A stretch of 20,728 nucleotides of DNA from a virus. The stretch's first letter is position 1; each line of letters opens with the position of its first letter. A model generated the notes under the pieces. It ran no database searches, was not told the origin of the DNA, and was given only the letters and a program-made list of their open reading frames with translations. Below, piece after piece: positions 3,607 to 20,728 of this stretch. The stretch covers positions 1 to 20,728 of the IMG/VR virus record IMGVR_UViG_3300025869_000128. One strand, written 5' to 3'. The translations under genes were made by a program, and so were the position numbers.

Positions 3607-4896
3607 ATGGCAAACCCAGCAGTCGCATCAAAATATCAACTATTCACAATAACTAAGAATAATAGATCCTTTCCACTTCAATCTAAAGTTACGAGTTTTG
3701 ATTATTATGAAAGTTTATTGTCTCCAAATATTACTGCCATTATGACATTTGTGGATACTGGATTAGTTGAGGTAGATCAAAATGTTGCGACCTATGATAA
3801 GAAGTATGACTCCCAATCGAGACCAGGAACATTATATAATGCACTTCCAATTGTTGGTGACGGATCCGAAGAAATTAAATTTAAAATATCATCGGCACTT
3901 GGAACATTAGATTTTTCAACAACTCCATTATATGTAAATGGAACATCCAATCCAGATCAAAGTTCGACTCGTGAGTCTGTCATTCTAAGTCTTGTTTCTA
4001 AATCTGCAATTACAAATCAACAAACCTTTGTGAAGAAAAATTATTCAAGATCGACTAATAATACACAATCAGTTAGATTGATTGCAAAAAATATCTTAAA
4101 AATTGATAAACTTATTACAAATGAAGCTTCAAATAAATATCCATTTATTGGTAATAATAAATCACCATTTGATGTGATTTGTATGATAGCATCAAAATCG
4201 GCACCAGAAAATGGATCTCCTGGGTTTTTCTTTTATGAAACAAAAGATGGGCACAACTTTAGAGCAATTGATGATTTAATATCTCAAACACCTGCTGCAA
4301 CCTATTTTCGTAATGATGTTAATAGAAGTAGTGTGAGTGATAATTTAAATGATTTTAAGATTTTATCTTTTAGTATTATTAAAAATCAAAGTCTAATCAA
4401 TGCACTAAAATCTGGTGTATATTCAAATCGCAGAGTCGTATTTAATCCTAAAACTTTCAAATTAGAAGAAAAGCAATTTAATATAGGATCTTTAAAAAAA
4501 TCACTAGGTAAAAATGAAGCACCGACACCACAAGATAAAAAGCATACTAGAATACTGTACAGTATAAAAGATGTTGGTTGTCTTTCCTCAAAGGTAGAAG
4601 AAAGTGACGAAGGTGATGTGGACAGTTATCAGGGTGAGGTTCAAATGAGATATAATTTGCTGTTTACACAGATGGTAAAAATGCAAGTTCCTTGTAATCC
4701 AAATCTTAAGGCAGGTGATATTGTTAAGTGTAATTTAGAAATTATTACTCCGGGAGAAAAAGAGCAAGGTTCAGTTGATCCTGTAGAGAGTGGTAATTAT
4801 ATGATTTTAGATTTATGTCATCATTATGATCCTGAAAGATCATTTACCGCAATGACTCTTATTCGTGATACTTACGGCCTCTATACTGGCAAATAA
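3607..4896 (+). CDS. Baseplate hub protein, gp27-like
   Basis: 429 residues; T4 gp27 is about 390. ATG lies 5 bases after the previous stop. The N-terminus has FDYYESLLSPNITA and reads as an all-beta domain. The last 90 residues (about 340-429) resemble the tube-forming domains of gp27/VgrG/gpD hubs: MRYNLLFTQMVKMQVPCNP, LKAGDIVKCNL, then SGNYMILDLCHHYDPERSF and a final TLIRDTYGL. In gp27-type hubs a trimer forms a pseudo-hexameric ring joining the tail tube to the gp5 spike. The gene immediately downstream encodes a gp5-like OB fold, starting 1 base after this stop, which supports the pairing. Family placement is by motif reading and gene order only. Confidence 0.7.
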   Translation: MANPAVASKYQLFTITKNNRSFPLQSKVTSFDYYESLLSPNITAIMTFVDTGLVEVDQNVATYDKKYDSQSRPGTLYNALPIVGDGSEEIKFKISSALGTLDFSTTPLYVNGTSNPDQSSTRESVILSLVSKSAITNQQTFVKKNYSRSTNNTQSVRLIAKNILKIDKLITNEASNKYPFIGNNKSPFDVICMIASKSAPENGSPGFFFYETKDGHNFRAIDDLISQTPAATYFRNDVNRSSVSDNLNDFKILSFSIIKNQSLINALKSGVYSNRRVVFNPKTFKLEEKQFNIGSLKKSLGKNEAPTPQDKKHTRILYSIKDVGCLSSKVEESDEGDVDSYQGEVQMRYNLLFTQMVKMQVPCNPNLKAGDIVKCNLEIITPGEKEQGSVDPVESGNYMILDLCHHYDPERSFTAMTLIRDTYGLYTGK

Positions 4897-5443: not shown

Positions 5444-7237
5444 ATGTCTAATCTTCAGGAAACAAATAAAGGATATACTCAATCAGATGCTCCTTTATCC
5501 GAAAAACCTCTTGGTAGTGCAGCTATGACAAAAGCTGTTACTGAGATGCAAAAAACAAGATCTGGGCCAGATCCATGTGGTCAAGGTGAGATGGGTAGGA
5601 TTAATATAGAATTACAGAAATTTTTTGAGGCATTAAAAGGAATTAAAAAATATGCGAATCTTTATGTAAATGGAACAATAAATAAATTGCAAAATGTAAC
5701 TTCTCTAATTAGAAATGTTTCTACAATAATTGCAGGAGTAATGAAAAGTTTAATGAATAGATTGAGAGATTTTTTAATTGATCAAATTAGAAAGGCAGTT
5801 GATTCCATAATTGATCAAATATTTCCCACAATTGTTAAAGGATTAAGAAATACAATTATTCAGCAGATTATTGATCAAATATTCTGTGCATTTAAAAATG
5901 TAGTAAAATCTCTTAAAAATTTAGCAGCAGATTTTCTCTCCGAATTAGTCGGAAAAGTTGTTAATGCACCATTTTGTGCTGCACAACAATACACAAATGC
6001 TCTTGTTAATAATTTAGCAGCAATTATTGATAAGGCTGTTGGTCCATTATTGGACGGGATTAATGATGCTTTGGGTGGAGTTGCTAATGTTGTTGGTGAT
6101 GTGTTCCAAGCACTTGATTATATTTTAGGATTTCAATCTATGACCTGTATGAAACCAAACTGTCCCGAAATTAAAGCATTTAAAGCGAGTCCTTGGGGTG
6201 GACCAACTCAACAACAAATTGATGATTTTGAAAATTTTATAGCACCTCTTGGTGGCAGACAATCTCCAGGTGCAGAAGGAATTGTTGGAGGTATTGATGG
6301 ACTTATTCAAGATATAGAAATATTTGGAAAAAGAATTGGAGATTCTCCTACTACAAATATAGGATGTGATACTGATCCATTTAAATGTGGTCCACCAACA
6401 ATTGAATTATTTGGTGGTGGAGGAATAGGAGCAGCGGCAGAAATTGTTATTGATAATTTTGGAACAGTAATAGGTTCTAATATTTTGTCTGGAGGAAGAG
6501 GATATGAAAGACCACCTTTTGTTACAATAAATGATTCTTGTGGAAATTCATATATGAATGGATACTCTAACATAGATGATAATCCAGATTCACCAACTTT
6601 TGGACAGGTAACTGATATTATTTTCACAACAAATCCCACTGTTCCACCAAGAGATGGTTCAGATGAAACTAATCCTACTACAGGTCCTAATGACGATTTA
6701 GATAACACCGATAGACCTCAATCATCGGATGATGAAATTGATCCAACACTATTTGGATCAGACTATATTGTATGCTTAGAAGGATTTAGAGTATTGAGTA
6801 TGGGATTTGGATATACAACTGATGATATCTTTGAAATTGATCCAGATATTCCAAATTTAAGTGTTTCAATAAAACTAACTGACGTTGGTCAAGTTATTGA
6901 TGTACAGATTGCAGAGAGAATATGCGGATTAACTTCATATCCAGAAGTTGATATAAATAGTCCAACTGGAGATGGTGCGATTATAGAACCAATTCTATCA
7001 TTTATCAAAATTGAAGATGAAATTGCTTCTGTAGATCCTGTTATTCCAGATGATGAAATTGCTTCTGTAGATCCTGATATTTCTGTAGGTATCGATTTTG
7101 TTATTCAAGCAGAAATTGCTAAAAATAATTTTGAAGGATTTATAACTACCTTAAGAGGGAAAAAACTCATAACAGAAAAACAACAGAAAGAGTTTACACG
7201 CGGAAATGTAATTAAAATTGTTGATTGTATAACATAA
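5444..7237 (+). CDS. Unknown virion-type protein between the two gp5-like modules
   Basis: 597 residues. The start is well supported: GGGAGGA at 5427-5433, 10 bases before the ATG, is the clearest ribosome-binding site in the window. The N-terminal half (about 50-240) is helical and hydrophobic with repeated I-D-Q-I motifs (LIDQIRK, IIDQIFP, IIDQIFC), reading like an inner tail or baseplate rod. The middle is Gly/Pro rich with Cys pairs (C-M-K-P-N-C; CDTDPFKCGPP). The C-terminal part is beta-type with glycine-turn motifs SGGRGYERPPFVTI and SMGFGYTTDDIFEI, a pattern I associate with cyanophage structural proteins. A 12-residue duplication (DEIASVDP twice) lies near the end. I do not recognise a function. 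Position between the OB-fold gene and the beta-helix gene argues for a hub or spike-associated role. Confidence 0.6.
   Translation: MSNLQETNKGYTQSDAPLSEKPLGSAAMTKAVTEMQKTRSGPDPCGQGEMGRINIELQKFFEALKGIKKYANLYVNGTINKLQNVTSLIRNVSTIIAGVMKSLMNRLRDFLIDQIRKAVDSIIDQIFPTIVKGLRNTIIQQIIDQIFCAFKNVVKSLKNLAADFLSELVGKVVNAPFCAAQQYTNALVNNLAAIIDKAVGPLLDGINDALGGVANVVGDVFQALDYILGFQSMTCMKPNCPEIKAFKASPWGGPTQQQIDDFENFIAPLGGRQSPGAEGIVGGIDGLIQDIEIFGKRIGDSPTTNIGCDTDPFKCGPPTIELFGGGGIGAAAEIVIDNFGTVIGSNILSGGRGYERPPFVTINDSCGNSYMNGYSNIDDNPDSPTFGQVTDIIFTTNPTVPPRDGSDETNPTTGPNDDLDNTDRPQSSDDEIDPTLFGSDYIVCLEGFRVLSMGFGYTTDDIFEIDPDIPNLSVSIKLTDVGQVIDVQIAERICGLTSYPEVDINSPTGDGAIIEPILSFIKIEDEIASVDPVIPDDEIASVDPDISVGIDFVIQAEIAKNNFEGFITTLRGKKLITEKQQKEFTRGNVIKIVDCIT
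7016..7087 (+). repeat. Direct 36-bp duplication
   Basis: A 25-base identical stretch occurs at 7016-7040 and 7052-7076, giving a 36-base period (12 codons) with a diverged remainder. It encodes DEIASVDP twice. The near-identity at DNA level suggests a recent duplication. Confidence 0.8.
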
Positions 7238-7238
7238 T

Positions 7239-7844
7239 ATGGGAAATAAAATTAAAGCTAGAGATTATACACATGTAAATAATCCATACGCACACATTCA
7301 CTTTGGACCATCTGGCGAACCTAATAAGAAGGGTGAAGATTTAAATACATGCATGACTACTTTACTTAGAAGTGGACACTCATGTATTTTTACTAATGAT
7401 GGAAATAAAGGTGAAATTAATCCAGGTTCTTCTCATGAGATTTGTGGAACTGAACTTGATAGAGGTCGTAATGATTCTGAAAAAGAAGCAATTGCAAAAT
7501 CAATTACATGCGAAAATGGTGATTTGGTACTAACTGCTCCAAATGGTAATGTAAAAATATTGGCACAAAATTTTTATGTTGAAACAATGGGTGCTGATAG
7601 TGATGGATCTATATTAATGAAGGCAAATGATCATATCATATTAAAAGCAGACGAACAAATTAATATTGCCGGAGGAAAAGTATGTATCACATCTTCTGAT
7701 AGTATAACTATTAATGCAAAAGGCACACTTTACGCACTTTATTCTGATATAGAACAAGGTTCGCCGTTAAATAATATAACAGACATTTTCAAAATTAGTA
7801 GCGTCACTGAGTTAATAAAATCTTTTGCAAACACTTGTAAGTAA
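7239..7844 (+). CDS. Small beta-helical spike-like protein (gp5 C-terminal module)
   Basis: 201 residues, starting 1 base after the previous stop. The N-terminal 85 residues contain H/C-rich segments (HIHFGPSGEPN; SGHSCIFTNDGNKGE). Residues about 90-165 are short alternating beta repeats: CENGDLVLTAPNGNVKILAQ, then DGSILMKANDHIILKADEQ and KVCITSSDSITINAKG. This is how the triple-stranded beta-helix at the C-terminus of T4 gp5 and of VgrG/gpV spikes reads. The protein is therefore a candidate membrane-puncturing needle, encoded apart from its OB fold. The C-terminal 35 residues are helical. Whether the conserved Cys/His residues bind metal, as in many spike tips, cannot be decided from sequence. 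Confidence 0.65.
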   Translation: MGNKIKARDYTHVNNPYAHIHFGPSGEPNKKGEDLNTCMTTLLRSGHSCIFTNDGNKGEINPGSSHEICGTELDRGRNDSEKEAIAKSITCENGDLVLTAPNGNVKILAQNFYVETMGADSDGSILMKANDHIILKADEQINIAGGKVCITSSDSITINAKGTLYALYSDIEQGSPLNNITDIFKISSVTELIKSFANTCK

Positions 7845-7856
7845 GGAAAAATAATT

Positions 7857-8708
7857 ATGTCTTTTCAAAATTTAGATACCGGTTGTTTAGATGTTTTTAG
7901 TGCAATTGTCGGAAGTTCTCTTAATATTCCAAAGGGTTTCTGGAAACCAGGAACTGCCGCAATTTATAACGGGTATTTGGGAACTACAGCACTCTCACAA
8001 TATGGTCAAGGAACTTGTAATGTAGGAATGAGTCCTGATAGTCCATTTGCATATACTGGAGCTGTTGGTAATGTTAATTTTCATAATAAATGTCTAACAA
8101 CGTATATTGGAGATCATAGAGTTATTGGACGTTCTTCTGTACAAGGTATAGAATTTAGAACAAACGTTGCAAATAGTCACATAGTTGCTAAAAACTCTAC
8201 TATCGCGGCATCTAAAGCTTCCATCGCTGCAGCAAATTTAGATCTTAGTAGTGCAAATCTTAATATAAAAGGGAATGTATCTATTACAGGTTTAAATGCT
8301 GCATCTGGATCGAGACCTCTATCTTGGGATAAAAAAAAACCTTTTGATATTCTTCATCCGACAAAAGAAGGTCATAGACTTAGATATGTTTGTTTAGAGG
8401 GCCCAAAGGCAGAAGTATATGTACGTGGAAAATCTAAAAATAATGTAATAGAACTTCCAGATTATTGGGTTGGACTGGTTGATGAAGAATCAATTACGGT
8501 CCATTTAACTCCAGTAGGATTTAATCAAAATTTATATGTGGAAAGTATTTGTGATAATAAGATTACCATTGCCGGAGCAGAAAAATATAATTTTCAATAT
8601 GTTGCTTATGGTGAAAGAAAGGACACTGAACCTAACATTCCTGAGTATAAAGGCTTGACAGAAGCAGACTATCCAGGAGATAATAAAGAATATAATCTCA
8701 TAAGATAA
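7857..8708 (+). CDS. Virion protein with a fibre-tip-type C-terminal domain
   Basis: 283 residues; TAAGGAAA lies just before the ATG as a plausible ribosome-binding site. The N-terminal part is Gly-rich beta. Residues about 108-148 are Ala/Ser/Asn-rich short repeats (SHIVAKNSTIAASKASIAAA, LDLSSANLNIKGNVSITG), like a beta-helix stalk. Residues 160-255 contain KPFDILHPTKEGHRLRYVC, LEGPKAEVYVRG, IELPDYWVGLV and ITVHLTPVGFNQNLYV. From memory this matches a C-terminal domain found on many phage tail fibres and spikes (L-E-G/S-P ... V-Y-x-G ... L-P-D-Y-F). The product is thus fibre- or spike-like although it is encoded in the hub cluster. The stop overlaps the next start by one base (TAATG). Confidence 0.6.
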   Translation: MSFQNLDTGCLDVFSAIVGSSLNIPKGFWKPGTAAIYNGYLGTTALSQYGQGTCNVGMSPDSPFAYTGAVGNVNFHNKCLTTYIGDHRVIGRSSVQGIEFRTNVANSHIVAKNSTIAASKASIAAANLDLSSANLNIKGNVSITGLNAASGSRPLSWDKKKPFDILHPTKEGHRLRYVCLEGPKAEVYVRGKSKNNVIELPDYWVGLVDEESITVHLTPVGFNQNLYVESICDNKITIAGAEKYNFQYVAYGERKDTEPNIPEYKGLTEADYPGDNKEYNLIR

Positions 8709-9388
8709 TGAAAAAAATACATGAAGTTTTTCCTCTGGTTATATATCAGGGTTCTTTGGAATGTCATGAAAAATTCAAAGAATATAATTTAGAAGAAGTA
8801 AAAGAATATTGGTTTAACGGATATGAATATGAATCACCAGAAGCATCATCTAGAATTTTTTTACACCTCAATGAAAATTGTTCAGAGTTATTTAAAAATT
8901 TAAGAACAATTTTTGATGAGTATTTTGATGCTCTCAATATTGACTATCAGAAATTAAATTATCATGTCGTAAAGTCATGGGTCGTTTATCATAAAGATGA
9001 TTCGACACCACCACTTCGACCACATAACCACAATGAAGCAAATATTAGTTTTGTCTATTATCTAAAAACAGATGAAACCTCCGATAAATTTGTTGTCAGT
9101 CAGCAACCAGATACAAATGTGAATCAAGTTTGTCAGGGATTTTTTGATACTGCAGACGTTCATAATATCATGACGGGTTATAATCGATATAATTGTAATC
9201 ACTACACAATTACTCCAACTGAGGGATCTGTAATTGTAATGCCATCAAACACATATCATCACACAATTAAAAAAGTGAGAGAAAGAGAAAGAGTTGCAAT
9301 TGCTGGTGATGTTAGAGTCACATTAAAACCAGAATGCTATAAACATCATCAAGGTTGCACTCATCCGTCACAATGGAGGGAACTCTAA
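8708..9388 (+). CDS. 2-oxoglutarate/Fe(II)-dependent oxygenase-like protein
   Basis: 226 residues, start overlapping the previous stop by one base (TAATG), so translation is likely coupled. The core fits the 2OG-Fe(II) oxygenase families common in marine T4-like phages: KSWVVYHKDD at 89-98, PHNHNEANISFVYYLK at 105-120 with candidate iron ligands H106/H108 (E110 nearby), the strand GSVIVMPSNTYHHTI with the distal histidine H184 or H185, and R195 in RERVAIAGDV as the candidate 2OG carboxylate-binding arginine. It would hydroxylate an unknown substrate, protein or other. It is transcribed with virion genes, so a virion-protein substrate is possible but this is inference. Its 3' end overlaps the convergent minus-strand gene by 21 bases. 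Confidence 0.75.
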   Translation: MKKIHEVFPLVIYQGSLECHEKFKEYNLEEVKEYWFNGYEYESPEASSRIFLHLNENCSELFKNLRTIFDEYFDALNIDYQKLNYHVVKSWVVYHKDDSTPPLRPHNHNEANISFVYYLKTDETSDKFVVSQQPDTNVNQVCQGFFDTADVHNIMTGYNRYNCNHYTITPTEGSVIVMPSNTYHHTIKKVRERERVAIAGDVRVTLKPECYKHHQGCTHPSQWREL

Positions 9389-10105
9389 TGCCCATTCGGG
9401 TCTAATTTTTTTATAAAAATTTCTTTGTTCTGCAGCACTTTGATCCCCTCTTCTAGTCCAATCTATCTTATAATCTAAAATAACTTTTTGATGTCCAATA
9501 TATTTTCCAATGTAGTCATAGATTAAAGTTTCTCCAACTGAAATGTCTGCAATACCTTTATGATTCATATTTTTCATCATAGAATATAATGAAAAATATT
9601 TTTTCATATTTGTAGGATTCCCATATGCAAAGAAATCAGCATATGATTCATGTGGTTCACATGGACCTGGATGAACTTTCCATGCAGGAATACAAAGTTT
9701 TACCTTCGGATTTATTTTAAAATTAGTGACACTGAGATCAGGTCTAGATTTGATAATAATATCATAATCATCAAAATCGAATAAATCAAGTGCCAGATAA
9801 TTTGCATACCATCCTCTAAGTTGTCTTTCCGACCATTCTCTACCAAATGATTCTCTACCACCTTCTTTAAAAATCATTGGTGGACATGTTTCAGTATCTC
9901 TGAATAGATATGCTTTTGGACTATATTCTTTGATTACATCATTTACATCAATAGAAATAAATCCTGTTCTCCAATGTTCTTGAGAATATGTGGAAGAACT
10001 TATATATACATCCGCATTATATTTTTCAATAATATTTGAAATGTTTTTTGAAAGATGTCTTTTCCAATCTCTCATATATCCAGTAAGAACAAATGCGACC
10101 TTCAT
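9368..10105 (-). CDS. Glycosyltransferase-like protein, opposite strand
   Basis: 245 residues, the only convincing minus-strand gene here. The N-terminus KVAFVLTGYMRDW reads as a first Rossmann strand and loop, followed by YNADVYISS. The middle has WYANYLALDLFDFDDYDII, then IKSRPDL (R121-P-D-L), the acidic motif typical of small GT-A-like glycosyltransferases in large DNA viruses and capsule clusters, and ESYADFFAYG. The C-terminus is basic and aromatic. It probably transfers a sugar to an unidentified acceptor. The gene lies antisense within a plus-strand late cluster, overlapping the oxygenase gene tail-to-tail by 21 bases and starting 39 bases from the divergent next gene. This looks like a cassette insertion. 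Exact GT family is not assigned. Confidence 0.65.
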   Translation of the reverse strand: MKVAFVLTGYMRDWKRHLSKNISNIIEKYNADVYISSSTYSQEHWRTGFISIDVNDVIKEYSPKAYLFRDTETCPPMIFKEGGRESFGREWSERQLRGWYANYLALDLFDFDDYDIIIKSRPDLSVTNFKINPKVKLCIPAWKVHPGPCEPHESYADFFAYGNPTNMKKYFSLYSMMKNMNHKGIADISVGETLIYDYIGKYIGHQKVILDYKIDWTRRGDQSAAEQRNFYKKIRPEWALEFPPL

Positions 10106-10107
10106 AT

Positions 10108-10114
10108 CTAAATA
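10108..10114 (+). promoter_or_regulatory. Late-promoter-like element CTAAATA
   Basis: CTAAATA followed by AAA, 37 bases before ATG 10145 in the short divergent intergenic region. It is a close variant of the ATAAATA element seen at the other late starts. Confidence 0.5.
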
Positions 10115-10129
10115 AAATCAGTTATAATT

Positions 10130-10137
10130 AATTTATA
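10130..10137 (-). promoter_or_regulatory. Late-promoter-like element TATAAATT for the glycosyltransferase gene
   Basis: On the minus strand this reads TATAAATT, 7 of 8 bases identical to the T4 late consensus TATAAATA. Its 5' end is 32 bases from the start of the minus-strand gene, the same spacing as the plus-strand elements. The region is AT-rich, so chance is possible. Confidence 0.4.
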
Positions 10138-10144
10138 TTAAATT

Positions 10145-11032
10145 ATGTCAAAGTCATCTGCGGCATTAGGTAGTCTTAAGTTATCACTAGATATTAGTGA
10201 TCAGTATGGTAAGGATGCATCTGAAGGAATAGGTGTTACAGCAACATATAATGAAGTTGAAATTAAGGCCAATCCAAAAACCGGGAAATATGAAAAAAGT
10301 GAGGTAGAAAAAAACTCTCCAGTAAAAAAAGATGTTGATGCTAGAGCAGATGAATTATCATTTTACAAGGGGCAAGTTGATTCATTGAAAGAAGTCAGCT
10401 TCAATGCAGACAAAAAATTATTTGATATTGTAACAGAAATAAATTCCAAGAAAAATCAAATAATTCAAATAATTACAGAAGCAACTGCTGTTGGTTGTGG
10501 TTGTTCATTTGTAGACCCATTAGATACTGTGGTAAATGGAGTCACTCTTGGTGTTGGTGCAACTTTTGTTCAAGATTATGCTTATATAAAATCATATCCG
10601 GGATTGGATTCTGGTTCTGATAGTCCATATGAAAGTGAATCTAAATCAACAATGACTCAAAATAATATTGGTAAAGGATTTGAGACTGGATATGATATTA
10701 ACTATGTTGAAGATAGTGGAGATCCATCTACAGGATTACCAATAGTAGGTTTTACGTCATTAACTGGACTGGCCAATATTTTTGCGAGTTGTAGTGATGA
10801 TGATTGTAGTGATAAATTATCTCAAGTTGAGGATTTGGCTGCAGAAATAGGATCCCTCAGATCAAAAATTAATAATCAATTAATTTCTGACACAAATACC
10901 GTGAAGGAAGAACAATCTAAGAATGAGTTATTTGTATGGTCTTATGAACATACTGAAAATAGTAATGCTGACACTAGAAATAAGACGGCAAATGTACAAT
11001 CTGTTATTAAAAACCAATCTGGATTTGATTAA
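10145..11032 (+). CDS. Unknown late protein
   Basis: 295 residues, preceded by a late-promoter-like element; no Shine-Dalgarno is visible. No family recognised. It starts SKSSAALGSLKLSLDISDQY, has a Lys/Glu-rich segment (40-85), a helical stretch (about 70-115), VGCGCSFVDPLDTVVNGVTL, a Ser/Gly/Asp/Tyr-rich central region, a Cys pair in CSDDDCSD, a short coiled coil (about 225-245) and a polar C-terminus. No signal peptide or membrane segment is evident. Its placement between tail genes and its late-type promoter suggest a virion or assembly protein, but that is inference only. The downstream stretch 11033-11054 holds a 5-bp hairpin (CCAGT/ACTGG) without a T-run. Confidence 0.55.
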   Translation: MSKSSAALGSLKLSLDISDQYGKDASEGIGVTATYNEVEIKANPKTGKYEKSEVEKNSPVKKDVDARADELSFYKGQVDSLKEVSFNADKKLFDIVTEINSKKNQIIQIITEATAVGCGCSFVDPLDTVVNGVTLGVGATFVQDYAYIKSYPGLDSGSDSPYESESKSTMTQNNIGKGFETGYDINYVEDSGDPSTGLPIVGFTSLTGLANIFASCSDDDCSDKLSQVEDLAAEIGSLRSKINNQLISDTNTVKEEQSKNELFVWSYEHTENSNADTRNKTANVQSVIKNQSGFD

Positions 11033-11054
11033 TCCAGTTCTATCACTGGCACAG

Positions 11055-11083
11055 TTGACACCGGCACTCAAATGCCTTATAAT
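11055..11083 (+). promoter_or_regulatory. Consensus sigma-70 promoter, TTGACA-17-TATAAT
   Basis: TTGACA at 11055-11060 and TATAAT at 11078-11083, separated by exactly 17 bases: a full match to the host housekeeping-sigma consensus. The expected transcription start is near 11090. It should drive the two small genes and the tRNA cluster to the terminator at 11955-11986 and marks this unit as early or host-polymerase transcribed. Confidence 0.85.
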
Positions 11084-11107
11084 AACAAGGTAAGCAACCA
11101 AGGCACC

Positions 11108-11296
11108 ATGCAAGACGAGTTTCTCACACGTTGTGTTGTAGACCCTACCAAACGCACAATCTACATTTATTCCAGTGAAGGAGACACCAAAGAAATTGTT
11201 TGTGATACTGTAGATCAGTTCATGAATGTTCTTGAGGTCATCCGTAATACTTGTCCAAAAGATGCTTTGGTTTATGCAGAACCACTGGAGGTGTAA
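11108..11296 (+). CDS. Small unknown protein, early type
   Basis: 62 residues. An in-frame ATG at 11072 would give 74 residues, but it lies between the -35 and -10 elements of the promoter above and would not be transcribed from it, so ATG 11108 is preferred; AAGG sits at 11100-11103. The protein reads MQDEFLTRCVVDPTKRTIYI, then SSEGDTKEIVCD and a C-terminal helix with VDQFMNVLEVIRNTCP: a compact alpha/beta fold. I believe small proteins like this are widespread in T4-like cyanophages, function unknown. Its last codons carry GGAGG-like sequence (11287-11291) that serves as ribosome-binding site for the next gene, starting right after the stop. Confidence 0.7.
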   Translation: MQDEFLTRCVVDPTKRTIYIYSSEGDTKEIVCDTVDQFMNVLEVIRNTCPKDALVYAEPLEV

Positions 11297-11470
11297 ATGG
11301 AGATTTTTACCCTGAAAGAATGGGAAGACAATTTTGATGAACTCTTAGAAAGAGTCGAAAACGGTGAAACCATAGGTATTGTAAGAGAAGATGGTAAGGC
11401 AGCAGTAATGATGCCTGCCGATGATGAACTGATACGAATACACACTGAGAACAATAACGAAGCTCAGTAG
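11297..11470 (+). CDS. Phd/YefM-like antitoxin or DNA-binding protein
   Basis: 57 residues, ATG immediately after the upstream TAA, with GGAGG at 11287-11291. The sequence follows the Phd/YefM N-terminal pattern: EIFTLKEW (strand then helix), DELLERVENGE (helix ending in the conserved G-E), then IVREDGKAAVMMPADDEL, the beta-hairpin with the usual R-x-G-K-x-x-A-V/M-L-x-P layout. The family binds operator DNA and neutralises RelE/Doc toxins. The C-terminal toxin-binding tail is short here (about 15 polar residues) and no toxin gene follows; tRNA genes do. It could be a solitary antitoxin countering a host toxin, or a repurposed regulator. Fold assignment is by eye. Confidence 0.65.
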   Translation: MEIFTLKEWEDNFDELLERVENGETIGIVREDGKAAVMMPADDELIRIHTENNNEAQ

Positions 11471-11480
11471 TTCATCATCT

Positions 11481-11568
11481 GCTCGTGAGACTTGGTAGTC
11501 AGGGGAGTTTTATAAACTCTTTGCACCCGATTAGTGCCTTTGAGATGGTTCAAATCCATCCACGAGTA
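11481..11568 (+). tRNA. Class II tRNA-like gene with anticodon UAU (atypical)
   Basis: 88 bases. Acceptor stem GCTCGTG/CACGAGT (one G-T pair), discriminator A at 11568, D arm GAC-TTGGTA-GTC, anticodon stem GGAGT/ACTCT with loop TTTATAA giving TAT at 11511-11513. The variable arm (11521-11543) contains a 4-bp stem GCAC/GTGC, and the T arm is GATGG-TTCAAAT-CCATC. CCA is not encoded. A UAU anticodon would read AUA (Ile), but a long variable arm is normal for Leu, Ser and Tyr tRNAs. Only one base separates the acceptor and D stems, and the anticodon stem may extend with G-T pairs, so it is either divergent or partly degenerate. Amino-acid identity is open. Confidence 0.6.
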
Positions 11569-11571
11569 TTT

Positions 11572-11644
11572 GCAGGTTTACCAATCTGGTGAATGGACCG
11601 TTCTCATAAAACGGCGAAGGTGGGTTCAATTCCCACAACCTGCA
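11572..11644 (+). tRNA. tRNA with anticodon CAU (Met elongator or Ile2)
   Basis: 73 bases, 3 bases after the previous tRNA-like gene. Acceptor GCAGGTT/AACCTGC is perfect, D arm CCA-A...TGG, anticodon stem CCGTT/AACGG with loop CTCATAA (CAT at 11605-11607), variable loop of 5, T arm GTGGG-TTCAATT-CCCAC perfect, discriminator A; no encoded CCA. The paired G1-C72 and the lack of G-C triplets in the anticodon stem argue against an initiator. Choosing between elongator Met and lysidine-modified Ile(CAU) needs comparison; the latter would read AUA. Confidence 0.9.
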
Positions 11645-11785
11645 TGAGACGGGGAATGAGCTCGCCCGCGACGGTGCTAACCACACTGTGATCTAGAGAG
11701 TTGGTTACTTTCTTTTTGCTCCATTACAAACTGTCAGTATACTGGGTGTGATGCCCACATAGCATACGGATAAGTGTAATGTTAT
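11645..11785 (+). other. Inter-tRNA spacer, 141 bases
   Basis: GC-richer than the late genes. It has no open frame of useful length and no T-loop box for another tRNA. It holds an inverted repeat TAACCA/TGGTTA in the first half and a weak promoter-like pair TTGCTC (11716-11721) - 16 - TATACT (11738-11743) that could feed the last tRNA. GCATA/TATGC pair immediately before the last tRNA. Confidence 0.4.
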
Positions 11786-11858
11786 GCCCGTGTAATCCAA
11801 AGGCAGAGATAATCGACTTAAAATCGATACAGTATCGGTTCGAGTCCGATCACGGGTA
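11786..11858 (+). tRNA. tRNA with anticodon UAA (Leu codon UUA) but short variable loop
   Basis: 73 bases. Acceptor GCCCGTG/CACGGGT (one G-T pair), U8, D arm ATC-CAAAGGCAGA-GAT with the conserved GG, anticodon stem ATCGA/TCGAT with loop CTTAAAA (TAA at 11819-11821), variable loop ACAGT of only 5 bases, T arm ATCGG-TTCGAGT-CCGAT, discriminator A at 11858, no encoded CCA. All helices are complete, so it should fold well. Bacterial Leu tRNAs normally have a long variable arm; this one is class I in shape, which is odd for a UAA anticodon. Confidence 0.9.
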
Positions 11859-11954
11859 TTAAAAGGGGAAGGAGTTAGCCCCACTATATGTAAAGTCACT
11901 CTGCGAGAAATGAAGATTATATGATAGGGTTTTTCTTTGGTGAGTGAATAACAT

Positions 11955-11986
11955 GAGGTTCCTGGTGGTGCGGGAACCTCTTTTTT
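11955..11986 (+). terminator. Intrinsic terminator
   Basis: GAGGTTCC (11955-11962) and GGAACCTC (11973-11980) form a perfect 8-bp stem around a 10-base loop, followed at once by six T (11981-11986). It ends the early unit of small genes and tRNAs. A late-promoter-like element begins 7 bases downstream. The 96 bases between the last tRNA and this hairpin hold only a GGGG/CCCC mini-hairpin near 11865-11882. Confidence 0.9.
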
Positions 11987-11992
11987 ATGAAA

Positions 11993-11999
11993 ATAAATA
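11993..11999 (+). promoter_or_regulatory. Late-promoter-like element ATAAATA
   Basis: ATAAATA directly behind the terminator T-run and 27 bases before ATG 12020. Confidence 0.5.
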
Positions 12000-12019
12000 A
12001 AAGAAAGAATAATATTATT

Positions 12020-12328
12020 ATGTCTTATACAGTAACCACTAAAAAGTGTTGGTATAATGACTATAGGATGATAGTCAAAATGTTTTTCTTAAATGATGTT
12101 CCATTTACATTTGATGATTTACCTGTGGGATATCTTTATGATCGGGAAATATTAAGAGAGGCATATAGTAACAAAGATTATTCGGTGGAAGATATCTACA
12201 AAGGTTCTAATTATTTGATATTAGAAAATTGTCATCCTTGCTTTGATGATATTGAGATATTAAACCCCGAAAACTTACCAGAAGAGATACAAAATTTTTA
12301 TAATGGAGAAGAGGATTTACTGAGATAA
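12020..12328 (+). CDS. Unknown small acidic protein
   Basis: 102 residues. An in-frame ATG at 11987 follows the terminator T-run directly and precedes the late-promoter-like element, so it would not be on a transcript from that element; ATG 12020 is preferred. The protein starts MSYTVTTKKCWYNDYRMIVK, continues with an aromatic and acidic segment (FTFDDLPVGYLYDREILREA) and ends acidic (ILNPENLPEEIQNFYNGEED). It has two Cys-Pro/Cys-Trp sites but no metal motif. No family recognised. Its stop overlaps the late-promoter-like element of the next gene. Confidence 0.55.
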   Translation: MSYTVTTKKCWYNDYRMIVKMFFLNDVPFTFDDLPVGYLYDREILREAYSNKDYSVEDIYKGSNYLILENCHPCFDDIEILNPENLPEEIQNFYNGEEDLLR

Positions 12329-12331
12329 ATA
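12325..12331 (+). promoter_or_regulatory. Late-promoter-like element ATAAATA
   Basis: ATAAATA overlapping the stop codon of the preceding gene, 39 bases before ATG 12364 of the giant fibre gene. Confidence 0.5.
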
Positions 12332-12363
12332 AAATATAGAAATGTCCTAGAAATCGTAATAAG

Positions 12364-15300
12364 ATGCCACTCAATAAGCTTGACAATTTCATTAAGAATA
12401 CCGAAGGTCGTATACTATATGTAAGTCCATCAGATTTAGATGCTACAGATAGTATTGATAATCAAGGTAATTCACTTGCTCGTCCATTTAAGACAATTCA
12501 GAGAGCTATTTTAGAATCTGCTCGTTTTTCTTACTTAAGAGGGGCATCTAACGATTTAATTGAGAAGACCACAATTCTTTTGATGCCAGGTGAACATACT
12601 ATTGACAATAGACCTGGATTTAAAATAAAAAATTCAAGTGGAGTAGCAAAGGTAGTATCTCCATCAGATGCAGAATCTGATGCGGCAGTCACTTTAAATT
12701 TAGATTTAAATTCAAACTTTGATTTAACTCAAGAAGACAACGTTTTATATAAATTTAATAGTGTTAATGGTGGAACTATTGTACCCAGAGGTACATCTAT
12801 TGTTGGTCTTGACTTAAGAAAAACTAAAATTAGACCTCTTTATGTACCAAATCCTACTGATGTTGATGTAGATAATAGTGCTATTTTTAGAATTACTGGT
12901 ACTTGTTACTTCTGGCAGTTTTCATTTTTTGATGGGAATGAAAACGGATTAGTCTACACTGACCCTACTGATTTTAGTAACAATAATAAATCCAAACCTA
13001 TCTTCTCGCACCATAAACTTACTTGCTTTGAGTATGCTGACGGTGTGAATATTGTCAATAGATCCTTATATGGAACTTTGACAGATCTTGATATGTATTA
13101 TGCAAAACTTTCTAATGCATATAATACAGGATCAGGATCACCAAGTAGAAATATTGATGCTAAGTTTCCTTCCGACACTGAGGGATTTGCAAAACAGAGA
13201 CCAGAGTGGGAAATTGTTGGTGCATTTGCTTCTGATCCAATTTCTATCAGTTCAATTGAAGCTGGATCTGGAGGAACTCCAACTAACCAAGTTACGGTAA
13301 CAACTGTCACTGATCATAATTTATCGGCAGGAACTCCGATTAAAATTAGTGGAGTAGATCCTGAGGATTATAATATTTCAACAAAAGTACAACTTGTTGA
13401 TGCAGATAATCCAAGAGTATTTACATATCTATTACCAACATTTAGAAAGAACCTTCCTACTCCAGGAAATGCATCTGGTGCAGAAGTAACCATTGAAACT
13501 GATACCGTTACTGGTGCTTCTCCTTACATCTTTAATATTTCAATGCGTTCCGTTTTTGGTATGAATGGAATGCACGCTGATGGTGCTAAGGCATCTGGTT
13601 TCCGTTCGATGGTTGTGGCACAGTTTACTGGTGTTTCACTTCAAAAAGACGATAGAGCATTTGTAAAGTATAATCAATCTTCTCGTTCTTATAATGGTAT
13701 TTCTCTTTCAAGAGTGGCCGGATCAGAACTTTCAAATGGATCATCATCAACTAATAATGAGACCGTATATCACCTTGATACTGATGCCATTTATAGAAAC
13801 ACTTGGGAACACTCTCATATTAAAGTTTCGAATGATGCAATTCTACAAATTGTTTCGGTCTTTGCGATTGGATTTAACAAACACTTTGAAATTTCTAGTG
13901 GTGGTGACGCATCAATCACAAACTCAAATTCCAACTTTGGTCAATTATCGCTAGTATCCGAAGGATTTAAAAAAGAAGCATTTGAAAAAGATAACAAGGC
14001 ATTTATTACAAATATTATACTGCCAAGGTCAAACGTAGTTGCAGAAGAAGATATTGACTGGTTGACGATTGATGTTGGTATTACTACGTCAGTTGGTATT
14101 TCCACTAACTTATACTTAAGAGAGTTCACTTCTGAAGATGATGTTCCACCAACACTAACTCAGGGTTATAGGGTTGGTGCAAAAGTAAATGATAAATTAT
14201 TTGTAAATATTGATGGATCTCGATATGAAGCAAATATTTTAATGGAAAACGGAGTTGATAACTCCTTTAGAGAATTTGATGTATCATCTGTAGTGAGTAG
14301 TAAATTTACTATTGGTATTAATCATGGACTTAAAACTGGCGAAAAGGTTATTTTATTAAGTGATGATGGAGATTATCCTGAAAATATTACTCCACACATA
14401 CCATATTATGTTGTTGCTTTTGATACTGCTCCTAATTTAGATAAAATTCAATTAGCACCTACAAAAGTTGATGCAGAAAATGGAAATAATATTACTGTTT
14501 ATGGTGGAACTAAGTTAAGAATTCAATCAAGAGTAACAGACAAAATTTCTGGTGAAGCAGGACATCCAGTACAATTTGATAGTGCTCAGAATCGTTGGTT
14601 CATCCATGTAAATAATTCAAATACAATTTATACCAAATTAGCAAGTTCTGGTGTTGCTGGAATTGGAGCAGAAACTGATCCAACATTTATCAAAAGAACA
14701 CCTGATAATAGAAGTTTAGATGAAAAAGTATATAAGTTTAGAGCAGTAATTCCTAAAGAATTAGTTAATGGTAAAAATCCCGAATCTGGATTTGTTATTC
14801 AAGAATCAAGCACTACGGAAGCCCGTGATGCGAATGATTTTACTTTATCTGATATTACAATTAGTGATTTCAATTTCAAGAAAAATAATAGATTTATTGC
14901 AAAATGTACTCATTCATCAACCACCTCAACTCTTACAACTGAACTTCCACATAACCTAGAAGTTGGTGATCAAGTCATTATTAAAAATGCAACCGATAGC
15001 ACCAATAGTGATGGGGCAATTAATGAAGGATACAATGGAACATTTATTGTTGCAAGTATTCCAAATAATATGGAGTTTACTTATACAAACTCCCAAAGTC
15101 CTGGTGCATCATCGACTAATGATACGAGTGTAAGAAATCAAAATCTTCCAAGATTTGAGAGGAATGATGTAAAGTCTAACTTTTATATTTACAGAACAGA
15201 AATTATTGATGAATATATTGAAGGAGTTCAAAATGGTGTATATCACTTATATGCACTCAAAGCTGATGCATCGATCCCCAATGAATTTACAGACTTACAA

Positions 15301-17664
15301 TTTAGCCAAAACGTAACTGATTTCTATCCACAATTAGATAGAGACAATGTAAATGACTCTCCACTATCAACAAAAACTTATGCGGCATCTTCTCCATTAG
15401 GTCAAGTTGTTACTAGTGATTTAAAAGGAAGTATTACGAGAGAAACATCTGATAAAGTAATTACAAAACTCAATAAAAATCTAACAGTTAGTGCAGTTAC
15501 ACCACAGTCTGCAGGTGTCTCCACAGTTACATTTACTAGAAATCATGAATTTAATCGTGCAATAACAGGAACTCTTTCTGCAGGAACTGGAATCAGAACT
15601 GATGGAACATATTATAATGTAAAACTTTATAATGATGCTTCATATAGCACTTGGAGTGGAGCAACAGCAAAAGTTATAGTTGCTGGTAATGCAATCACTT
15701 CATTCCAAATTCAATCTCAGGGTTCTGGATATTCTGATGGTGATGTATTGTATTTTGATAACGATGCTATTGATGGAAATCAGGATGGAACAATTACTTT
15801 AGATACGGCAGGAATTGCAACAGCTACTGGTGATGTAGTTCAGGTCACTGGTATTGGAACAGTATCTGATGGATATTATCGTATTGCCAACATTCCTAGT
15901 AAGAATCAAATTGGAATATCCAGAACCACTGGAGATCCATCTATCTTTGCCGATCACATTGTAATACCTGTAGGTCAATCTATTGCTATCGGATCGACAT
16001 CATTTAATGCTACAACAAAGATAACGACATTTAATTGTAATAATGCTCATGGATTAGTTTCTGGAAACAAATTTAGAGTTATTGATACATCCAACAATAA
16101 CTTGGGAGATTTTATTGTCAAGTCTAAAGTTGGAGTTACAACTTTCACTGCAGAAACTACAGTAGAATTAACAAATCCTGCGTTTATTCTTCAACATTAT
16201 TTCTCTTCTAACTCGGGTGTTTCCGATAGAAGTAATGAAAATCTCGCATCTAGATCAAAAACTCTTTATGGAAATGATTCGCTTGTAATTAGTAATAGTG
16301 GAAGTTCAATTGGAGTAAATACAACACTAATTCCAATTTCTCATCCATCTTCAGGTATCGGAACAACTGAAAGATTTCCAATTGGAACATATGTTCAAAT
16401 TGAGGACGAGATTATGAGAATTTCATCTTCCTCTCTAACTGGAACAAATAAACTTTCTGTTATTCGTGGTATTTTCTCTACCAATTCTTCTTCACATGCC
16501 GATGGATCACTAATTCGTAAGATTAATGTTTTACCAGTAGAATTTAGAAGACCATCTACAGTTCGTGCATCTGGACACACATTTGAATATCTTGGTTATG
16601 GTCCAGGTAACTATTCTACAGGTCTTCCTCAGGTTCAAACAAAATCACTGACAGAGAAGGAAGAATTCTTATCTCAGGCACAGGAAAGATCTGCTGGTAT
16701 TGTTGTTTACACTGGTATGAACAACAGAGGTGACTTTTATATTGGTAATACTAAGAAGTCATCTGCAACTGGCGAAGAAACATCATTCGATACTCCAATT
16801 CCCACAGTTACAGGTGAAGATCCAGCAAGACTGAGTGTTATCTTTGATGAAGTGACTGTTAAAGAAAGAATTATTGTTGAGGGTGGTGATTCGGGAGAAA
16901 TTCTTTCTCAGTTTGATGGTCCAGTAACATTTAATAATGGCGTTAGAATTAAGGATACTCTTTCTTTATCCGGAAGATTTAGAGTATTAAATACAACACA
17001 ATCAACCAATAGTAATTCTGGTGCAATTATTGTTGATGGTGGTGTTGGTATTGATAAAGACTTATATGTTGGTGGAGTTGCTAATTTTAATAGCCTTGAT
17101 CTGACAGGAACGTTTAGTTGTGCTGGTATTGCTACACTAGCAAAAAATGGTGGTATTACTACTACTGGTGGAGATCTTTTTGTTGGTGGTGCTACTACCA
17201 CTACAGATTTATCAGCTGGTAATCTACAAATAGCAGTTACAGATGACAATACAATCGATAGCAAGAGTGGCAATCTTAAATTAGGTGCTTTTACAGGATC
17301 ATATGTTGCCATTCAGACTAATACAACAATTACCGGAATATTAAGTGTTACTGACGATATTACTGCATTCTGGACATCTGACTCAAGATTGAAAGATAAT
17401 GTCAATCTCATTGATAATCCTCTTGAAAAAGTAATTTCTATCAGTGGTAATACATTTGAGTGGAATGAAAAATCCAATAAGTCTGGACATGATGTTGGTC
17501 TGATCGCACAAGAGATTGAAAAAGTGCTTCCAGAAGCAGTTGTAACAAGAGATAATGGTTATCTTGCAGTGGATTATCATAAAGTAATACCATTGCTTGT
17601 AGAGGCAATTAAGGAGCTCTCTGATAAGGTAGAAACACTTGAGCAAAAATTATCCGATAAATAA
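12364..17664 (+). CDS. Giant fibre/spike protein with C-terminal S74-type self-cleaving chaperone
   Basis: 1766 residues. The N-terminus (about 15-60) reads GRILYVSPSDLDATD and then GNSLARPFKTIQRAI, the entry typical of pectin-lyase-like beta-helix proteins; I believe such N-termini are common in large cyanophage structural proteins. The middle is long beta-repeat sequence with hinge-like motifs (NHGLKTGEKVIL, LPHNLEVGDQVII, NAHGLVSGNKFRV: the same N/H-x-L-x-x-G-x-x-V unit several times). Residues about 1669-1766 form an S74 intramolecular chaperone: TSDSRLKDNV with candidate cleavage Ser1672 (codon 17377-17379), FEWNEKS, GLIAQEIEKVLPEAV, then VDYHKVIPLLVEAIKEL and a short coiled coil. In this family the domain trimerises the fibre and cuts itself off. 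Likely a host-contact fibre or baseplate spike. No clear Shine-Dalgarno. Confidence 0.75.
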   Translation: MPLNKLDNFIKNTEGRILYVSPSDLDATDSIDNQGNSLARPFKTIQRAILESARFSYLRGASNDLIEKTTILLMPGEHTIDNRPGFKIKNSSGVAKVVSPSDAESDAAVTLNLDLNSNFDLTQEDNVLYKFNSVNGGTIVPRGTSIVGLDLRKTKIRPLYVPNPTDVDVDNSAIFRITGTCYFWQFSFFDGNENGLVYTDPTDFSNNNKSKPIFSHHKLTCFEYADGVNIVNRSLYGTLTDLDMYYAKLSNAYNTGSGSPSRNIDAKFPSDTEGFAKQRPEWEIVGAFASDPISISSIEAGSGGTPTNQVTVTTVTDHNLSAGTPIKISGVDPEDYNISTKVQLVDADNPRVFTYLLPTFRKNLPTPGNASGAEVTIETDTVTGASPYIFNISMRSVFGMNGMHADGAKASGFRSMVVAQFTGVSLQKDDRAFVKYNQSSRSYNGISLSRVAGSELSNGSSSTNNETVYHLDTDAIYRNTWEHSHIKVSNDAILQIVSVFAIGFNKHFEISSGGDASITNSNSNFGQLSLVSEGFKKEAFEKDNKAFITNIILPRSNVVAEEDIDWLTIDVGITTSVGISTNLYLREFTSEDDVPPTLTQGYRVGAKVNDKLFVNIDGSRYEANILMENGVDNSFREFDVSSVVSSKFTIGINHGLKTGEKVILLSDDGDYPENITPHIPYYVVAFDTAPNLDKIQLAPTKVDAENGNNITVYGGTKLRIQSRVTDKISGEAGHPVQFDSAQNRWFIHVNNSNTIYTKLASSGVAGIGAETDPTFIKRTPDNRSLDEKVYKFRAVIPKELVNGKNPESGFVIQESSTTEARDANDFTLSDITISDFNFKKNNRFIAKCTHSSTTSTLTTELPHNLEVGDQVIIKNATDSTNSDGAINEGYNGTFIVASIPNNMEFTYTNSQSPGASSTNDTSVRNQNLPRFERNDVKSNFYIYRTEIIDEYIEGVQNGVYHLYALKADASIPNEFTDLQFSQNVTDFYPQLDRDNVNDSPLSTKTYAASSPLGQVVTSDLKGSITRETSDKVITKLNKNLTVSAVTPQSAGVSTVTFTRNHEFNRAITGTLSAGTGIRTDGTYYNVKLYNDASYSTWSGATAKVIVAGNAITSFQIQSQGSGYSDGDVLYFDNDAIDGNQDGTITLDTAGIATATGDVVQVTGIGTVSDGYYRIANIPSKNQIGISRTTGDPSIFADHIVIPVGQSIAIGSTSFNATTKITTFNCNNAHGLVSGNKFRVIDTSNNNLGDFIVKSKVGVTTFTAETTVELTNPAFILQHYFSSNSGVSDRSNENLASRSKTLYGNDSLVISNSGSSIGVNTTLIPISHPSSGIGTTERFPIGTYVQIEDEIMRISSSSLTGTNKLSVIRGIFSTNSSSHADGSLIRKINVLPVEFRRPSTVRASGHTFEYLGYGPGNYSTGLPQVQTKSLTEKEEFLSQAQERSAGIVVYTGMNNRGDFYIGNTKKSSATGEETSFDTPIPTVTGEDPARLSVIFDEVTVKERIIVEGGDSGEILSQFDGPVTFNNGVRIKDTLSLSGRFRVLNTTQSTNSNSGAIIVDGGVGIDKDLYVGGVANFNSLDLTGTFSCAGIATLAKNGGITTTGGDLFVGGATTTTDLSAGNLQIAVTDDNTIDSKSGNLKLGAFTGSYVAIQTNTTITGILSVTDDITAFWTSDSRLKDNVNLIDNPLEKVISISGNTFEWNEKSNKSGHDVGLIAQEIEKVLPEAVVTRDNGYLAVDYHKVIPLLVEAIKELSDKVETLEQKLSDK
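17657..17663 (+). promoter_or_regulatory. Late-promoter-like element ATAAATA
   Basis: ATAAATA overlapping the stop codon of the giant fibre gene, 25 bases before ATG 17682. Confidence 0.5.
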
Positions 17665-17681
17665 CTCTAAAGATTATAATA

Positions 17682-20438: not shown

Positions 20439-20463
20439 CAAGACTCTAAAAACCATGTAGACT
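20435..20463 (+). promoter_or_regulatory. Sigma-70-like promoter, TTGACA-17-TAGACT
   Basis: Perfect -35 TTGACA (20435-20440), overlapping the fibre stop codon, 17-base spacer, and a 4/6 match -10 TAGACT (20458-20463). It marks the change from late to early-type genes. Confidence 0.55.
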
Positions 20464-20503
20464 ACCTTTGTTAGGGTTGAAGAGGAAGCTATAAGACACT
20501 TTA

Positions 20504-20538
20504 AGAACCGTCTACCAGGTCGCACTGGGGACGGTTCT
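20504..20538 (+). other. Long two-part hairpin between the fibre and helicase genes
   Basis: AGAACCGTC (20504-20512) pairs perfectly with GACGGTTCT (20530-20538); inside it CCAG (20515-20518) pairs with CTGG (20525-20528). No T-run follows, so it is not a classical terminator. It could still end or stabilise the late transcript, or be an operator next to the extended -10 promoter that follows. Confidence 0.6.
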
Positions 20539-20539
20539 C

Positions 20540-20548
20540 TGCTATAAT
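20540..20548 (+). promoter_or_regulatory. Extended -10 promoter TGCTATAAT
   Basis: TGnTATAAT at 20540-20548 is a full extended -10; the -35 position (TCGCAC) is poor, which extended -10 promoters tolerate. The expected start near 20555 would give a leader of about 17 bases before the helicase start. Confidence 0.65.
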
Positions 20549-20571
20549 AAGAAGGTAATCGAGGGACACCT

Positions 20572-20728
20572 TTGACCATCACTCTCAGACCCCATCAACG
20601 CAAGGCACTGAATGAGATGCTGGCATATGACAAAGGTCAGCTGATCATCCCTACGGGTGGTGGTAAGACTTTGTGTATGATATACGATGTTGTTGAGAAT
20701 CAAAAGTATATCGATAATGGTTCTACTA
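20572..20728 (+). CDS. Superfamily 2 helicase, N-terminal fragment (cut by window end)
   Basis: The first 52 codons of a frame open to the window edge. I take TTG 20572 as start: GAGGG at 20561-20565 is well spaced, and the next in-frame ATG (codon 16) would remove the conserved LRPHQRKAL box. The sequence L-T-I-T-L-R-P-H-Q-R-K-A-L-N-E-M is the Q-like motif that precedes the ATPase core in SF2 helicases, followed by QLIIPTGGGKTL, a Walker A/motif I. T4 UvsW carries about 110 residues before this point, so this is either a shorter relative or another phage SF2 helicase. The codon choice is less AT-rich than in the late genes and the promoter is host-type, as expected for an early or middle gene. 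Confidence 0.75.
   Translation, partial: MTITLRPHQRKALNEMLAYDKGQLIIPTGGGKTLCMIYDVVENQKYIDNGST

Follow-up and report, generated by a model that had tools for sequence, protein, structure and literature searches.

The antisense gene behind a 2OG-Fe(II) oxygenase gene in a T4-like tail region is, judging by its conservation, a real gene, accessory at its site yet resident there and probably not a fresh insert. The predicted fold gives good support for its product being a small, soluble GT-A-fold glycosyltransferase, GT6-like without being a GT6 member. With roughly even confidence, we regard it as an optional late glycosyltransferase gene in a fixed slot, whose product would most likely act on a virion or tail protein. 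The window, meaning the whole stretch analysed, spans 20,728 bases of a virus record (IMG/VR IMGVR_UViG_3300025869_000128). Its gene content (baseplate hub/lysozyme, tail and tail-fibre families) is that of a T4-like cyanomyovirus-type tail region, which together with DNA similarity to Synechococcus phage S-SKS1 within 11,048-20,681 suggests a picocyanobacterial host. Every other ORF with homology support lies, like the three tRNAs of the window, on the plus strand, confirming the lone minus-strand gene reported in the initial annotation; the 21-base tail-to-tail overlap with the oxygenase end and the 39-base divergent region before the next plus-strand ORF were likewise found as described there (Table 1). 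The setting is of a late type, with neighbours matching tail and baseplate families, and the downstream gene probably encodes a tail or baseplate protein.

Table 1. Features of the antisense gene and its surroundings (window coordinates).
Feature	Positions	Strand	Basis
Antisense gene, coding sequence, 245 aa, ATG start	9368-10105	-	phrog_13607 (function unassigned there), homologues, predicted GT-A fold
2OG-Fe(II) oxygenase	8708-9388	+	PF13759, phrog_81, protein-hydroxylase-like predicted fold
Tail-to-tail overlap of oxygenase and antisense gene, 21 nt	9368-9388	both	ORF coordinates
Divergent intergenic region, 39 nt from one start codon to the other	10106-10144	both	ORF coordinates
Downstream gene, 295 aa	10145-11032	+	matches no family; adjacent in most slots
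Upstream gene, 283 aa	7857-8708	+	phrog_17490; C-terminal half conserved beside oxygenase
CTAAATA, late-type promoter of downstream gene	10108-10114	+	single occurrence in window
TATAAATT, candidate late promoter for the antisense gene, whose ATG lies 32 nt further on	10137-10130	-	motif comparison across slots
R121-P122-D123 codons, RxD motif after strand 116-120	9737-9745	-	alignment and model

Several features of the surrounding DNA are recorded here in their own right. The C-terminal domain of the upstream protein is repeated in relatives, either in tandem genes (L018 6384-7810) or as a stand-alone short gene (L010 8850-9170). Alignment with S-SKS1 begins abruptly at 11028, at the end of the downstream gene, with 81% over 11028-13613 and more blocks to 20689, while a single 59-nt match is all that was found upstream of this point; from the alignment, the junction looks like a mosaic breakpoint. 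A small ORF at about 11298-11470 occupies a position equivalent to that of the S-SKS1 Phd-like antitoxin, and genes for tRNA-Ile(tat), tRNA-Met and tRNA-Leu lie among the tail genes at 11480-11859.

Homologues of the antisense gene were found at 44 IMG/VR loci. Seven of these (L052, L054-L059) are distant, with 26-33% identity, and lie in different contexts. Among the 37 closer homologues, the contigs of L029 and L030 stop short of the oxygenase; in each of the 35 that can be scored, the gene is convergent with and adjoins an oxygenase homologue. Identity to L007 at codon positions 1, 2 and 3 (0.94, 0.95 and 0.79) points to purifying selection. phrog_13607 is matched by 25 of the 26 aligned homologues. 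By sequence, no entry of Pfam, NCBIfam or the PDB named the protein (PDB chance matches only, E 0.5-1), and none of the 26 members matched a Pfam GT family. Searches of 50,697 phage records by tblastn gave nothing usable with the protein itself (one chance match to a Listeria phage, E 4) and no match with its homologues L046, L054 and L052. A pattern scan of genome contigs gave 98 pattern matches, none of them a confirmed relative, and nothing on the gene or its slot was recognised in the open-licence literature searched.

The identification of the product comes from structure prediction. An AlphaFold2 model built with the 26 homologues reached a mean pLDDT of 92.9 and a pTM of 0.91, and all 50 matches listed by Foldseek against the PDB are GT6-type enzymes (best E 8.3e-6). 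VIA-align gave Z 11.7 both to bovine alpha-1,3-galactosyltransferase (1g93; 3.8 A over 190 residues) and to the metal-independent bacterial BoGT6a (4ayj; 3.6 A over 185 residues), with sequence identities to GT6 structures of 8-13% among the matches listed. Viral structure matches are mostly unnamed cyanophage and giant-virus proteins, some labelled glycosyltransferase. The GT6 donor site, as characterised in a passage on the family, carries DxD or NxN (PMC3961637). That motif as such is absent here; R121 and D123 are invariant in all 26 aligned homologues, and the RxD motif probably takes its place, to judge from its position in the model. The distant homologues L052 and L054 adjoin genes for WavE, an FkbM methyltransferase, Glyco_trans_1_2 and a nucleotidyltransferase. 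It is this context, combined with the GT6-like fold, that leads us to call the protein a GT-A-fold glycosyltransferase; the label given in the initial annotation is thus upheld by predicted fold and distant context, but finds no sequence support in Pfam or NCBIfam. Kinship with WavE (PF07507) was considered and rejected, there being no Pfam match and only 0.4% probability (E 0.14) in hhalign comparisons with two WavE neighbours. A few genes from the distant homologue in L052, a large virus record, lies a tryptophan-halogenase-like protein (6673-8208; PF04820, E 7e-89).

The place behind the oxygenase behaves as a slot with alternative states. Alignment of the oxygenase retrieved 160 relatives, and among the best 80 of these the position directly after it holds the antisense gene in 18, a sense ParB-like gene in 14, neither in 46 and the contig end in 2. 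Where neither is found, the downstream-type gene follows directly in 39 cases, a glycine-rich gene in 2 and small genes only in 5. A wider set of 99 rows (100 sources minus L086, whose contig ends inside the oxygenase) comprises 46 with neither gene, 35 with the antisense gene, 17 with the ParB-like gene and 1 contig end. Some contigs entered twice: among the 35 carrier rows, six duplicate a contig already listed with a different locus id, leaving 29 distinct records, and L100 is a near copy of L097. The comparison of relatives proposed in the initial annotation therefore shows a gene that varies in presence and is not conserved in all of them. In every carrier row the two genes occupy opposite strands and overlap at their tails by 4, 12, 21, 25, 32, 65, 71 or 77 nt. 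The ParB-like gene (L009 6651-7031, L011, L013, L016) fills the slot in the sense direction, overlapping the oxygenase end; cyanophage S-SCSM2R has this state and annotates the product as a ParB-like CTPase. The stretches of S-SKS1 and Bellamy that were examined contain no oxygenase, transferase or ParB-like gene.

On a tree of 55 dereplicated oxygenases, presence of the antisense gene needs 10 changes (shuffled mean 14.5), of which starred branches force at least 6, and the three slot states together need 13; these counts are rough, because some branches are long (L097, L078) and rows may recombine. Close pairs show what such a change looks like. L129, with the gene, and L126, without it, share about 87% identity on the upstream side of the gap and 90% on the downstream side; L126 retains at 3670-3690 a stretch of 21 nt that in L129 codes for part of the C-terminal end of the transferase. 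L105 (present) and L092 (absent) agree at 83% and 88% on the two sides of a gap running from the oxygenase stop to the transferase start. Directly behind its oxygenase, L091 retains at 3673-3714 codons for MKIALVLTGYMRKW, corresponding to the first 14 transferase residues and identical to L097 at 12 of 14. Given these leftover gene ends, the absences in L126 and L091 at least are best read as losses. The proposal that the gene is a moron accordingly stands in one respect, since close relatives differ at the same site, but probably not as a recent one-off acquisition: place and orientation are constant wherever the gene is present in the family (35 of 35), and in some empty alleles remnants of the lost gene persist. 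A suspicion of recent transfer arose from L008, where protein identity is 89% for the oxygenase, 73% for the transferase and 38% for the hub. Fourfold sites (39/62 and 25/51, compared with 0.39-0.52 in the larger flanking genes) show no clear excess; recent transfer of an oxygenase-transferase block is unproven, and stronger selection would explain the identity excess as well.

The two motifs in the divergent region differ in how firmly they can be assigned. Within the window alone, neither exceeds dinucleotide shuffles (p ~0.54 for the plus and ~0.39 for the minus motif), and TATAAAT occurs 11 times. Comparison across slots is more informative. CTAAATA is given as the late motif of phage Aeh1 in the relevant part of one study (PMC1524935), and NATAAATA as that of S-PM2 in a section of a cyanophage review (PMC2984593). 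Of 46 slots dereplicated by hand (12 gene-carrying, 26 empty, 8 ParB; L041, L046 and L051, carriers without an adjacent downstream gene, and the empty rows L103, L109 and L134 were excluded), 40 have [AC]TAAATA no more than 45 nt ahead of the downstream start (shuffle mean 5.7, maximum 14 in 1000), at a distance of 25-40 nt. The placement of NATAAATA/CTAAATA some 25-40 nt before the downstream gene agrees with that of a T4-type (gp55) late promoter. The motif is present in 9 of 12 gene-carrying, 23 of 26 empty and 8 of 8 ParB slots. Its presence in slots without the antisense gene assigns it to the downstream gene, and the idea that it forms part of the antisense cassette was dropped. A plus-strand late motif for the downstream gene is therefore strongly supported by the slot comparison.

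On the minus strand, 6 of 15 gaps contain ATAAAT at 28-34 nt ahead of the antisense gene; shuffles average 0.43, and none of 2000 reaches this count. Scored upstream of the downstream start, the motif occurs in 6 of the 13 slots that carry the gene and in 2 of the 34 others (Fisher p 0.003, for rows that are not fully independent); the carriers here number 13, not 12, through the addition of L097, which has the plus motif and no minus ATAAAT. Because rows share ancestry and three of the six positives overlap the downstream start codon, the case for the antisense gene having its own gp55-type late promoter is moderate. The initial annotation had placed each motif for its own gene, which holds well for the plus strand and only moderately for the minus strand. 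A sigma-70 scan returned 9 sites, with 8.9 expected, and no terminator-like sites were found at 9000-10500. In T4, as set out in part of the study cited for Aeh1, the late motif lies at -13 to -6 (PMC1524935), and this spacing predicts starts near 10120(+) and 10124(-). Two promoters so placed would overlap head-on and be mutually exclusive.

Taken together, the preferred reading is that a gp55-type holoenzyme would transcribe both directions late in infection, one polymerase at a time using the 39-nt region. A short minus-strand transcript would give the transferase in the cytoplasm, where it could reach virion proteins before assembly and add a sugar from a host nucleotide-sugar, most likely to a baseplate or tail protein encoded nearby. 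As the scan of 9000-10500 found no terminator-like site, the minus transcript could also read through as antisense to the oxygenase; antisense RNA is mentioned elsewhere, for cyanophage S-PM2, in a section of the review (PMC2984593). Alternatively, the minus motif might merely reflect the AT-richness of the downstream gene's 5' region, with the antisense gene weakly or not transcribed late, a view we consider possible but unlikely. The single-sequence p value, the presence of the motif in the empty slots L126 and L107 and its absence from 7 of 13 occupied slots all speak for it; against it stand the enrichment in occupied slots, with the qualification on row independence made above, and a spacing of 31-34 nt that is kept despite differing flanking bases. 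A target on the host rather than on the virion, with the enzyme altering LPS or another surface glycan, for instance to block superinfection, likewise seems possible but less likely. Consistent with it, the gene clusters around the distant homologues L052 and L054 are of glycan or LPS type, and the LPS gene clusters of cyanophage P-SSM2 are proposed to act in this way in a passage of the same review (PMC2984593). However, the gene is single, adjoined by neither a flippase nor a polymerase nor any further glycan partner, and sits among late tail genes with late-type motifs. No sequence result favours one target over the other; we infer a virion target only from the tail-gene location and the absence of surface-glycan partners.

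The oxygenase next door invites two further explanations. It matches PF13759 (2OG-FeII_Oxy_5) with 42 bits at a cut-off of 27; all 14 members searched match this family, and among these no TET/JBP match was seen at E 0.001. Its model, of moderate quality (pLDDT 77), has as its nearest matches two uncharacterised proteins of marine bacteria (Z 16.2 and 16.1), followed by protein hydroxylases, among them prolyl 4-hydroxylase, LH3 and mimivirus L230 (Z ~13). L230 is described, in part of one account, as having both lysyl hydroxylase and hydroxylysyl glucosyltransferase activity (PMC9546862). The oxygenase might thus hydroxylate residues of a tail or baseplate protein and the antisense glycosyltransferase cap the new hydroxyl, as a phage analogue of L230/LH3 in which capping would be turned on or off through gene loss or a ParB-like gene in the slot. 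We think this improbable. The antisense gene does always adjoin the oxygenase (35 of 35 scorable close homologues) and the structural neighbours do include LH3 and L230, but adjacency follows from the slot itself, AlkB and small-molecule oxygenases of antibiotic pathways score nearly as high as the protein hydroxylases, and the model is only moderate. Moreover, 63 of 99 oxygenase rows are without the antisense gene, so glycosylation would be at most an optional second step. An oxygenase coupled to a glycosyltransferase also follows the logic of TET/JBP-type base modification. That the pair makes and glycosylates a hydroxylated DNA base is, however, very improbable, given the PF13759 assignment in 14 of 14 with no TET/JBP match, the location of the slot among tail genes, and a 2010 review that found no evidence for DNA modification or glycosylation in cyanomyoviruses (PMC2984593).

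Should its target be a virion protein, the enzyme would bear on how marine phages vary their surface; similar environmental T4-like neighbourhoods that carry the gene, lack it or have the ParB-like gene amount to a natural presence/absence experiment; and face-to-face overlapping late-type motifs for opposite genes are a layout in which transcriptional interference should be measurable. In addition, phrog_13607, a phage family without assigned function, gains a testable one: membership is shared by match in 25 of 26, and fold and context now suggest a glycosyltransferase.

Among known systems, the closest in structure are the enzymes of CAZy family GT6 (ABO/alpha-1,3-galactosyltransferases and BoGT6a), whose GT-A fold is predicted to be shared over nearly the whole antisense protein, BoGT6a being also of similar size; GT6 genes are reported from two cyanophages (PMC3961637). 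The antisense protein differs from GT6 in having, at the likely donor site, RxD instead of DxD/NxN, in its low identity and in matching no Pfam GT family by sequence. Mimivirus L230 and human LH3, which join a hydroxylase to a glycosyltransferase, are matched here by a predicted GT-A enzyme next to an oxygenase of hydroxylase-like predicted fold. In the window, however, the two are separate genes on opposite strands, the oxygenase often stands alone in relatives, and no collagen substrate is apparent. Phage morons and T4-like accessory late genes are similarly optional, with a fixed intergenic slot and a promoter motif of their own, for which the antisense gene has a candidate; in contrast to them, the antisense gene lies on the opposite strand, always overlaps its neighbour, changes state recurrently, leaves loss scars and has a sense ParB-like gene as its alternative.
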